Shown here in pieces: positions 1 through 38,842 of a stretch of DNA of 46,909 nt. The notes beneath the pieces were generated by a model. It had not been told where the DNA came from. It did no database searches and was given only the letters and a program-made list of their open reading frames with translations. Made by a program: the position numbers and the translations under genes. Within the stretch, counting starts at the first letter, position 1, and each line of letters begins with the position of its first letter. The stretch is from Actinomycetota bacterium. Lineage in GTDB: Bacteria; Actinomycetota; Actinomycetes; S36-B12; UBA5976. The stretch covers positions 1 to 46,909 of the forward strand of contig CANGDT010000011.1 in the NCBI GenBank assembly GCA_947452755.1, given 5' to 3'.

Positions 1-3000
1 TATAACGTGACTTTTGATTCGCAGGGCGGTTCGGCTGCGTCGGGTTCAACGTATTCCACTGGTGGCTCGGTGACACTGCCGGTAGATCCCACACGTTCGG
101 GGTATTCGTTTGCTGGTTGGTTTGCGGCATCGAGTGGTGGTTCAGCATTGACCTCACCGTATTCACCGTCGGGTTCTGGTGACATCACGTTGTACGCGCA
201 TTGGACAGCAAACACATATGCAGTCCATTACGACTCGCGTGGGGGTGCAGTGGTTGGTGACGGAAGCTATCTGTTTAGCCAATCCTTTACAGTGGCTGCT
301 GGACCTTTGCGCAGCGGTTACAACTTTGTGAACTGGTACGACGCGATTTCTGGGGGCAACGCCTACGTTGGCACGGTCACGCCTGGAACACCGGGCGATA
401 TTTCTTTGTACGCGCATTGGACGGCCAATGCATATAACGTGACGTTTGATTCGCAGGGCGGTTCGGCTGCGTCGGGTTCAACGTATTCCACTGGTGGCTC
501 GCTGACACTGCCGGTAGATCCCACACGTTCGGGGTATTCGTTTGCTGGTTGGTTTGCGGCAGCTACTGGCGGTTCGTCGTTATCGTCACCGTATTCACCT
601 TCAGGCTCTGGTGACATCACGTTGTACGCGCATTGGACAGCAAACACATATAACGTGACTTTTGATTCGCAGGGCGGTTCGGCTGCGTCGGGTTCAACGT
701 ATTCCACTGGTGGCTCGGTGACGTTGCCGTCAAACCCAACGCGTAGTGGTTATTCCTTTGCTGGTTGGTTTGCGGCAGCTACTGGCGGTTCGTCGTTATC
801 GTCACCGTATTCACCATCGGGTTCTGGTGACATCACGTTGTATGCACATTGGACGGCCAATACATATAACGTGACGTTTGATTCGCAGGGCGGTTCAGCT
901 GCGTCTGGTTCAACGTATTCCACTGGTGGTTCGGTGACGTTGCCGTCAAACCCAACGCGTAGTGGTTATTCCTTTGCCGGTTGGTTTGCGGCATCTACTG
1001 GCGGCTCGTCGTTATCGTCACCGTATTCACCGTCGGGTTCTGGTCACATTACGTTGTATGCACATTGGACGGCCAATACATATAACGTGACGTTCGATTC
1101 GCAGGGCGGTTCGGCTGCGTCTGGTTCAACGTATTTCACGGGTGGCTCGGTGGCGCTTCCTTCAGATCCGACACAGTCTGGCTATTCGTTTGCTGGTTGG
1201 TTTGCGGCATCTACTGGTGGGGCGGCGTTAGCATCTCCATATTCACCTGCTGGCTATGGCGACATCACGCTCTATGCACAGTGGACCGTATTGGTCGGCG
1301 ATTTAGTTCACTTTAATTCACAGGGTGGAACGCCAGTGGCTGATGATTCCTACTCGGCTGGTGGCTCAATAGCTTTGACAGACGTCCCCACTCGAGTGGG
1401 CTATGCCTTTGCAGGTTGGTATGAAACCTCCACAGGCGGCACTGCATTGTCCTCACCGTATTCACCACCAGGTTCAGGCGACATTACTTTGTATGCGCAA
1501 TGGACGGCGAACACATACAACGTGACGTTTGATTCGCAGGGCGGTTCAGCTGTCACCAGCTCAACGTATTCCACGGGTGGTTCGTTTGCGTTGCCAACGG
1601 GGCCAACACGTTCGGGTTATTCATTTGCAGGATGGTTTGCTGCTTCCGCTGGCGGCTTAGCCCTAACGTCTCCACATTCTCCGTCAGGCACAGGAGACCT
1701 TAATCTGTACGCACATTGGACGGCGAATTCATATGTGGTTCAGTACGATTCCCAGGGCGGAGCATCGGTAGGCGATGGAAGCTACATATTCGGCCAAGGG
1801 TTCTCTGTTGCAGGTGCGACAACGCGAAGTGGTTATAACTTTGTCAATTGGTTTGATGCACTGAGCGGTGGAACTTCGTTTTCCGGAACAGTAATACCGG
1901 GTTCTCCTGGCGATATTTCGTTGTATGCGCACTGGACTGCTAAAAGCTACAACGTGACTTTTGATTCGCAGGGCGGTTCAGCTGTTTCTAGCTCGACGTA
2001 TTCCACCGGTGGGTCGGTGGCGTTGCCGTCGAATCCAACGCGTTCGGGATATTCCTTTGCGGGCTGGTTTGCGGCAGCTTCGGGCGGTGCAGCATTGTCG
2101 ACACCGTATTCGCCGACAGGCGTTGGCGATATCACGCTGTATGCACATTGGACCGCGGGTAACTACATCGTTCATTTTGATAGTGCATCCGGTTCGGCTG
2201 TGGCGGATCGGGCTTATCGCACCGGAGGCACGGTTTCATTGCCTTCAGCTCCGACGCGTCTGGGTTACTCATTTGCGGGTTGGTTTGCAGCGTCATCTGG
2301 CGGAGCGGCTCTGGCATCGCCATATTCACCTTCAGGTTCTGGTGACATCACTCTGTATGCACATTGGACTGCCACGACTTACAACGTGACGTTCAATTCA
2401 CAAGGCGGTTCAGCAGTTGCCGGATCAACGTATTCCACCGGTGGGTCGGTGCCTTTGCCGTCGAGTCCAACTCGGTCCGGTTATACCTTTGCTGGCTGGT
2501 TTGCGGGTTCAACTAGCGGTTCATCGTTGACGTCACCTTATGCACCATCTGCCACGGGCGACATCACTATTTATGCACAGTGGACAGCGAATACGTACAC
2601 AGTTCGATACGACTCTCGTGGTGGCTCGTTTGTCGGCGATGGTAGTTACCTGTTTGGCCAATCGTTTACGGTAGCCGGCGGAGCAACTCGTAGTGGCTTC
2701 AATTTTGTTAATTGGTTTGACGCAGTAACGGGTGGCACAGCATTTGTCGGAACGGTTACGCCGGGCTCGGCTGGAGATATTTCGTTGTATGCGCACTGGT
2801 CAGCATTGAGCTACAACGTGACGTTTGATTCTCAGGGTGGATCAACTGTTTCGAATTTGCAGTATTCGACCGGTGGTTCGCTTGCGCTTCCAGCTGCTCC
2901 AACACGGTCCGGTTTTATATTTGCCGGTTGGTTTGCCGCGCCGAGTGGTGGCTCTGCTCTGGCCTCACCATTTTCACCGCAGGGGACGGGCGATATCACG

Positions 3001-37455: not shown

Positions 37456-37512
37456 TGAGGTGCCATTCTGCTAAAAGATGCGGAGTTGGCGAACCTAGTG
37501 TGCAATTAGTTA

Positions 37513-37551
37513 GCCGCGACTGGTGTAGACCCGAGACTCACCAGTCGCGGC
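37513..37551 (+). terminator. Rho-independent terminator after the peroxiredoxin gene
   Basis: A perfect 13-bp stem (37513-37525 with 37539-37551, GCCGCGACTGGTG/CACCAGTCGCGGC) with a 13-nt loop, followed by ACTTTTGTG. Confidence 0.82.
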
Positions 37552-37602
37552 ACTTTTGTGCCCATAGGGATGTGGTTTGTTGACTTGGGGTCTTTGTTGA
37601 AA

Positions 37603-37645: not shown

Positions 37646-37719
37646 GGGCGCTTAGCTCAGTTGGCTAGAGCATCTCGTTTACACCGAGAGGGTCAGGGGT
37701 TCGAGTCCCTTAGCGCCCA
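37646..37719 (+). tRNA. tRNA-Val (anticodon TAC)
   Basis: The 74-nt gene folds with acceptor GGGCGCT/AGCGCCC, D arm GCTC/GAGC, anticodon stem TCTCG/CGAGA around loop TTTACAC (anticodon TAC), and T arm AGGGG-TTCGAGT-CCCTT with one G-U pair. CCA is not encoded (ACGA follows), unlike the tRNA-Met in this window, so it must be added by the CCA enzyme. Confidence 0.95.
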
Positions 37720-37726
37720 CGACGAA

Positions 37727-37762
37727 ATACAAAAAGGCCCGCGAAAGCGGGTCTTTTTGTAT
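37727..37762 (+). terminator. tRNA-Val terminator (first copy of a tandem array)
   Basis: A 16-bp stem (37727-37742 with 37747-37762, one G-U) closed by a GAAA tetraloop; the descending arm ends TCTTTTTGTAT. The A tract of the ascending arm is unique to this first copy. Confidence 0.9.
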
Positions 37763-38010
37763 GAGGAGTGGGCGTAGTAAATGCAGTGCCCGCGTGGTGT
37801 GTGTTGGCCCGCGAAAGCGGGTCTTTTTGTATGAGGAGTGGGCGTAGTAAATGCAGTGCCCGCGTGGTGTGTGTTGACCCGCGCAAGCGGGTCTTTTTGT
37901 ATGAGGAGTGGGCGTAGTAAATGCAGTGCCCGCGTGGTGTGTGTTGGCCCGCGCAAGCGGGTCTTTTTGTATGAGGAGTGGGCGTGGTAAATGCAGTGCC
38001 CGCGTGGTGT
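37736..38010 (+). repeat. Exact 70-bp tandem repeat (four copies) containing a terminator hairpin
   Basis: The block GCG(A/C)AAGCGGGTCTTTTTG recurs at 37741, 37811, 37881 and 37951, i.e. every 70 bp. Each unit holds a CCCGC-GNRA-GCGGG hairpin followed by T5; the loop is GAAA in copies 1-2 and GCAA in copies 3-4. Each unit also holds a second weaker pairing (GGGC with GCCC). Copy 4 is cut short at about 38010. Since 70 is not a multiple of 3, and all stops and frames shift between units, it is not coding. Confidence 0.95.
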
Positions 38011-38011
38011 G

Positions 38012-38017: not shown

Positions 38018-38050
38018 TTAGTTTAACTTTCAACTAGTTAGCGAGCCGTA

Positions 38051-38842
38051 ATGTCAATTGAAACAGCAACCAAAATGCCTGCTTTGTACATCGGGCATGG
38101 CGCACCACCGTTGCTGGATGACCCTGTGTGGAGTGGCCAGCTCGCTGAACTGTCTGCGGACTTACCAACTCCCAAGGCTATTTTGATTGTGTCGGCTCAT
38201 TGGGAGAGTGCGCCGTTAACTGTTGGTGCGACTGATTCGTCAACTCCACTGATTTACGACTTTGGTGGCTTCGATCCGAAGTACTACCGGATGCAATACA
38301 AAGTTCCAGACTCTGCGTGGTTGTCTAAGAAAGTGCAAAGCCTGATGGCGGACAATCAATCCGTTGTTGAACAACCCAAGCGGGGTCTTGACCATGGCGC
38401 TTACGTCCCGATGATGGTGATGTATCCAGGCGCCAACATTCCAGTTCTTCAAATGTCGATTCCTACGCATAACCCAATTGAGTTATTCAAACTCGGTCAA
38501 CGGCTGGCACCACTTCGCGAAGAAGGCGTCATGATTGTGGGCAGCGGCTTTTTGACTCATGGCCTTCCGTACCTTCGTGAGTTCCGAATTGAAGCAACAC
38601 CGCCGGCTTGGAGTGTGGATTTTGACTTGTGGGCACAAGATGCAATTAGGCGCGCTGATCTCGACACTCTGATGAACTATCGCAACCTCGCTCCCGGTAT
38701 GCCTTACGCGCATCCGACAGTCGAGCACTTGTCGCCGATCTTCGTGACGCTCGGCGCATCCAGTGACGTGAACACCCCTGCGGATGTCGTTATTGACGGG
38801 TACTGGATGGGGTTGGCGAAAACCTCTTTGCAGGTTGCTTAG
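38051..38842 (+). CDS. DODA-type extradiol aromatic ring-opening dioxygenase
   Basis: The 263-residue protein belongs to the LigB/DODA (YgiD-like) superfamily of non-heme metal enzymes. Candidate ligands and acid-base residues are His in YIGHGAPPLLDD, His in IVSAHWES, the His in LDHGAYVPM, and His in HPTVEHLSPIFVTLG. Such enzymes cleave catechol-type rings, including DOPA. The natural substrate is not evident from neighbours, which are a tRNA and a zinc-ribbon gene. Length and motif order are normal. Confidence 0.9.
   Translation: MSIETATKMPALYIGHGAPPLLDDPVWSGQLAELSADLPTPKAILIVSAHWESAPLTVGATDSSTPLIYDFGGFDPKYYRMQYKVPDSAWLSKKVQSLMADNQSVVEQPKRGLDHGAYVPMMVMYPGANIPVLQMSIPTHNPIELFKLGQRLAPLREEGVMIVGSGFLTHGLPYLREFRIEATPPAWSVDFDLWAQDAIRRADLDTLMNYRNLAPGMPYAHPTVEHLSPIFVTLGASSDVNTPADVVIDGYWMGLAKTSLQVA

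Follow-up and report, generated by a model that had tools for sequence, protein, structure and literature searches.

Tandem copies of a tRNA-Val terminator hairpin and their probable place in a genus-specific class of gene-end arrays

How the terminator of a tRNA gene came to stand in four tandem copies was the question raised by a locus in a 46,909-nucleotide stretch of DNA (the window) from a bacterium judged, by its close relatives, to be a freshwater Nanopelagicales-type actinobacterium. The tRNA-Val gene (anticodon TAC; 37646..37720, + strand; ARAGORN, Rfam tRNA 68.7 bits) is followed on the same strand, 16 nt 3' of its end, by a tandem array at 37736-38011, for which TRF gave a period of 70, 3.9 copies, 98% matches and no indels. 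The 70-bp array of four units reported in the preliminary description was therefore real, with the copy number taken from a 66-contig draft assembly. Unit 2 (37806..37875, +) was identical to unit 1 (37736..37805, +), unit 3 (37876..37945, +) carried two changes, at position 2 (G>A) and position 9 (A>C), and unit 4 (37946..38011, +), with which the array ends, differed at positions 9 (A>C) and 41 (A>G) and in its final four bases (CTAG versus TGTT). CRISPR arrays consist of repeats separated by diverse spacers; here the whole 70-bp unit repeats with 98% matches, confirming the reported lack of spacer diversity and ruling out a CRISPR array.

Several other readings of the region were discarded. 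Phage matches to it were tRNA genes, Rfam matches under the gathering score (Thr_leader and others) were weak terminator look-alikes, and two reverse-strand ORFs of 87 and 107 aa crossing the array were without support and were taken as chance, because 70 is not a multiple of 3. The exact 70-bp unit had no match in the genome, viral and plasmid collections searched. Downstream lies a gene for a putative dioxygenase of 263 aa (38051..38842, +; named from the first reading of the sequence), with orthologues in 10 of 22 genus relatives; shortly 5' of it, a palindrome at 38019-38036 (TAGTTTAACTTTCAACTA), conserved in three relatives (L007, L013 and L018), looks like a putative operator for a MarR-type regulator. 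At the other end of the window (1-1640), a single long ORF contains tandem repeats, 216 and 432 bp in length, that translate to repeated, surface-protein-like modules of the YxVTFDSQGG type.

Single-unit folds placed two hairpins in each unit, the terminator hairpin with its T5, as had been described, and a second hairpin that had been missed, with 7 bp (GTGGGCG/TGCCCGC), loop TAGTAAATGCAG and unit positions 33-58 (37768..37793, +, in unit 1, recurring at +70, +140 and +210). The loop of the second hairpin contains AGTAAATGCAGT (37776..37787, +), a match to a 12-mer motif obtained by de novo search, which recurs at 37846, 37916 and 37986 (the last as GGTAAATGCAGT). The terminator hairpins of all four units folded with a 7-bp stem, a GNRA loop and then T5, and all four units carry the GC-rich stem, short loop and T-run by which an intrinsic terminator is defined in sequence. 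The first full-length hairpin (37727..37762, +), which overlaps unit 1 and occupies the place of the single terminator in relatives, reads ATACAAAAAGGCCCGC-GAAA-GCGGGTCTTTTTGTAT, with a 16-position stem, an A-tract on the left, T5 on the right and about -24.5 kcal/mol, versus -14.3 to -14.9 kcal/mol for the later copies without the A-tract side. It is longer than these because the left A-tract side (ATACAAAAA) is unique to it, the later copies having a shortened left arm, as in the wider class of arrays described below. Over the 296-nt region, the native sequence folded better than 200 of 200 shuffles (z -5.85).

GAAA versus GCAA had been given as the only difference among the hairpins, which proved wrong, the outer stem pair of unit 3 being altered as well (G.U to A-U). 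GCAA is common to units 3 and 4 and therefore represents one inherited change, not two. The claim that the GNRA loops point to a maintained structure was weakly supported: both hairpin changes preserve the structure (2/2, p about 0.05), but the loop difference is a single change, and GNRA loops kept inside the array are weak evidence for a maintained RNA structure. Better evidence for structure comes from the terminators of relatives, where stem sequences differ and pairing is kept (ACCCCC/GGGGGT, ACCTCC/GGAGGT, GACCGCA/TGCGGTC and others).

The orthologous tRNA-Val lies 3' of ahpE in the relatives, which were compared as one genome per species. Nearly all readable genus relatives carry a single hairpin after tRNA-Val, mostly an intrinsic terminator, and no array was present in any genus relative with a readable downstream stretch, indicating that the expansion is confined to the lineage of the window. 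With one unit, the spacing to the putative dioxygenase gene would be about 120 bp, near that of the relative L007. The comparison of copy number that had been proposed thus bore out the view of the array as a tRNA-Val terminator amplified in tandem.

The surroundings of tRNA-Val in these genomes held further elements. In the gap between ahpE and tRNA-Val (37470-37557 of the window), AAAGATGCGG is followed by a hairpin with the invariant loop GTAGACCCGAGACT, whose stem covaries strongly (both partners changed in five of the six pairs tested; covariation 0.67 versus 0.25 shuffled); the element also occurs in an order-level relative, had no Rfam match and is a candidate for an unnamed structured RNA. 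Upstream of tRNA-Val, G001 has a 59-bp array of 2.9 copies (L012 1217-1385), and similar repeats occur in G015 and G014 (L007, L010), the repeats of all three taking in the loop of the conserved hairpin next to ahpE together with its 3' arm. Several relatives (L006, L008, L009, L010, L014, L017 and L019) have, in the interval from the tRNA-Val terminator to the following gene, a small gene of VapB-like antitoxin type, named from sequence alone, with a following partner gene in some of them, making this a variable spot.

Further copies of the 70-bp unit after other tRNA genes had been suggested as a search; throughout the 1.73-Mb genome the unit was found only in the tRNA-Val array, and what emerged instead was a set of about 30 intergenic arrays of unrelated sequence with a shared linker. 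In the 1.70 of 1.73 Mb scanned as stretches, TRF with a simple coding filter detected 27 non-coding arrays (16 per Mb), or about 30 with three borderline ones, with units of 22-97 bp unrelated to each other in sequence. A de novo motif search on 29 array units returned a shared 12-mer, RRTAARTACTGC, with an LL of 91.6, while 12 shuffled sets reached no more than 44 and 12 matched intergenic sets no more than 47; in leave-one-out tests, 18 of the 29 arrays reached a shuffle p of at most 0.05. The tRNA-Val unit scored 8.7 bits when left out (shuffle p 0.007 and 0.024 in two runs; intergenic-window p 0.07). Motif sites lay between complementary arms of at least 4 bp in 19 of 39 cases within arrays, versus 103 of 898 elsewhere (p 3e-8), and the tRNA-Val array has the motif in the loop of its 7-bp stem. 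Outside arrays, solitary copies included, the motif showed no enrichment across the same genome. Hairpins scoring at least 10 were modestly enriched (8/27 arrays, 4.5 expected).

A first by-eye motif pattern, strongly over-represented, was set aside; because it had been chosen after looking, the de novo search and a pattern fixed beforehand were relied upon. A left-boundary motif, GGCACTG, counted by eye in 4 of 28 arrays versus 0.4% of gene ends, was likewise rejected, its de novo search not exceeding the controls. A second dispersed hairpin family, GGGATTTGGGAG - variable hairpin - GACGGTTCC, was also observed, often 3' of tRNA genes, in the same species (L080 14508, L157 3174 and 3282, L159 7928, L145 9032) and in G015 (L194, L195).

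The position of the arrays relative to genes was distinctive. Read in motif orientation, 23 of 36 arrays began at the stop codon of an ORF lying upstream on the same strand, versus 21% under random placement in the gap (p 3e-8); in the opposite orientation 13 of 36 did so, a weak asymmetry (discordant 15 versus 5, p 0.04). Another three arrays stand behind co-oriented tRNA genes, namely those of Val (window), Arg (L114) and His (L121), and the tRNA-Val array too starts at the gene 3' end in motif orientation. Palindromes spanning the stop codon with a score of at least 9 were found at 7 of 30 array-adjacent stops versus 14 of 1460 others (p 6e-8), examples being GGAGTTGTC-TAG-ACAACTCC, GGGTTCAATCAAC-TAG-TTGATTGAACCC and, at the end of groEL, GCATGGACTTC-TAG-TCCATGC. 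Elsewhere in the genome (C31; L126 14233), a 16-bp palindrome present in one copy, with a stop codon at its centre, has AAATAGATACTG immediately after it and is possibly a unit prior to tandem growth.

The paired-motif pattern, fixed before the search, matched the genome of the window and four of the genus's 22 other species (G005, G010, G015 and G016, the G005 match being probably chance). Of 20 genomes from other genera of the same family none matched, and of 56 further members of the order one did (G043, from another family); scrambled and reversed patterns gave no matches in 99 genomes. The G005 match, in a long open frame (412 aa), and that of G043, from another family, were left out of the class. 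Among the loci read, two from G015 and one from G010 proved to be gene-end hairpin arrays or runs of the motif, the first palindrome containing the stop codon. Among orthologous loci, six (A, B, C, E, F and I) were empty in one species and filled in the other, and two (D and J) were occupied in both species by differing stems. For array density in other genomes, the sequence covered was 400 kb from G015 and 377 kb from G001. At one G015 locus (L238; G015:C11 218471-218526), the linker appeared as a 15-bp run, CAATAARCACTGCAT, in about four copies after a stop-spanning palindrome, ATGCCGAAGAAATAG/CTATTTCTTCGGCAT. In G043 (L227; G043:C60), as a single case, a 25-bp tandem repeat, GTTGATCAATGAATACTGTGGCG, runs from a stop codon and contains the motif-like AATGAATACTG.

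Tandem copying, gene-end position, a shared linker and lineage-specific turnover were all observed, and the evidence that hairpins at gene ends are copied in tandem is good. The account that we consider probable is a recent, lineage-specific expansion of a terminator with its spacer from one copy to four, within a genus-specific class of gene-end arrays. The intrinsic terminator of tRNA-Val and the spacer behind it would have been copied in tandem, most likely through slippage during replication, or a template switch, at the terminator hairpin. In the plan of the class, the 3' end of a gene would carry a palindrome, which often takes in the stop codon, followed by a RRTAARTACTGC linker and then by copies whose left arm is shortened. 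The first terminator probably terminates, and the extra copies would be mostly redundant back-up, near neutral. The copying mechanism, this near neutrality and full class membership of the tRNA-Val unit are what we infer. There is moderate confidence in its membership, the unit being longer than most, following a tRNA with a T-run and not a stop codon, and matching the motif only moderately. Replication slippage, as originally proposed, fits best, but slippage alone leaves the linker common to unrelated arrays unexplained. It may be that selection keeps the linker as a site for binding or processing, or that an enzyme prefers or adds this sequence. Possible, and put forward tentatively, is an unnamed process in which an inverted copy of the gene 3' tail would be made at the stop codon, a fixed RRTAARTACTGC linker placed behind it and the whole multiplied in tandem, the linker being the recognition or added sequence of a putative enzyme and the tRNA-Val array the same event at a tRNA terminator.

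Against the favoured expansion within a class, the tRNA-Val array might be an independent VNTR unlinked to the other arrays, its motif match a matter of chance. Taken alone the match is marginal, since 7% of intergenic windows score as high, and unit length and T-run are unlike the class; the motif nevertheless occupies the loop of a stem, a placement common to many sister arrays, and TGAGGAGTGRGCG plus the motif region are common to the tRNA-Val and tRNA-Arg arrays, which makes independence rather doubtful. It is unlikely that the copies are serial terminators, selected because stacking them blocks read-through from a strong tRNA promoter into the putative dioxygenase gene. Stem, GNRA loop and T5 are kept in four of four units and the array does lie between the tRNA and a co-oriented gene, but relatives have one terminator at the same place, and most sister arrays are without a T-run and located after protein genes. 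Because the array copies are nearly identical, their maintenance is indistinguishable from recency.

We also regard as very unlikely that the arrays consist of REP-like hairpins behaving as transposons, with a tyrosine transposase or reverse transcriptase as the agent that moves them. Hairpin units that share a short tag on one side and stand at gene ends would suit such elements; however, the genome, 94% complete, had no match to a Y1 transposase (PF01797) or a reverse transcriptase (PF00078), stems were unrelated between loci, and solitary motif copies were not enriched. The chance that the copy number was inflated or misjoined in assembly is slighter still: the short-read draft has 66 contigs and two of the units are identical, but units 3 and 4 have differences private to them, and the array is bordered at either end by intact single-copy sequence within a 46.9-kb contig.

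Within the expansion that we favour, the four-copy tRNA-Val terminator is by itself a minor VNTR. The wider class is more unusual: the shared linker and stop-codon starts across many unrelated arrays, in this genome and in other species of the genus, point to a common mutational or enzymatic process at gene ends, for which orthologous loci in related species (for example groEL, the uracil phosphoribosyltransferase-like gene and locus D) offer material for ordering the steps. The arrays are, in addition, candidate markers for typing strains of abundant lake bacteria that are uncultured. No description of the gene-end array class was found in the limited set of literature searched.

Among known systems, the array resembles intrinsic (rho-independent) terminators in its GC-rich hairpin, stable tetraloop and T5 directly after a tRNA gene, but unlike them it is repeated four times in tandem, and every unit has an additional hairpin that bears the motif. 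Inverted repeats can be homogenised by template switching, a known process (PMC8604942, PMC7202029) in which palindromes become perfect without any selection; by itself, however, it yields neither tandem copies nor a shared linker, both of which are present. REPs have a shared stem sequence and a GTAG or CGTC tag, those with GTAG being linked to RAYT transposases (PMC3733652). REP/BIME elements are like the array class in their extragenic hairpins, short conserved tag and occasional arrays, whereas the stems of the class are not shared and no Y1 transposase was found; for the tRNA-Val array a REP/BIME identity is ruled out, its unit being unique to the array and PF01797 unmatched at 94% completeness. 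For the wider class, the MIRUs are the nearest analogy. MIRU/VNTR loci of Mycobacterium are likewise 40-100-bp tandem repeats in actinobacterial gene gaps, missing from relatives at the same gap. MIRUs have been described as mobile and tied to translation signals, forming one repeat family with insertion at start codons and an ORF coupled to the gene (PMC12548453, PMC2734929), and these descriptions set apart the present arrays, in which stems differ per locus, only the 12-mer linker is shared, and the starts lie at stop codons or tRNA ends.
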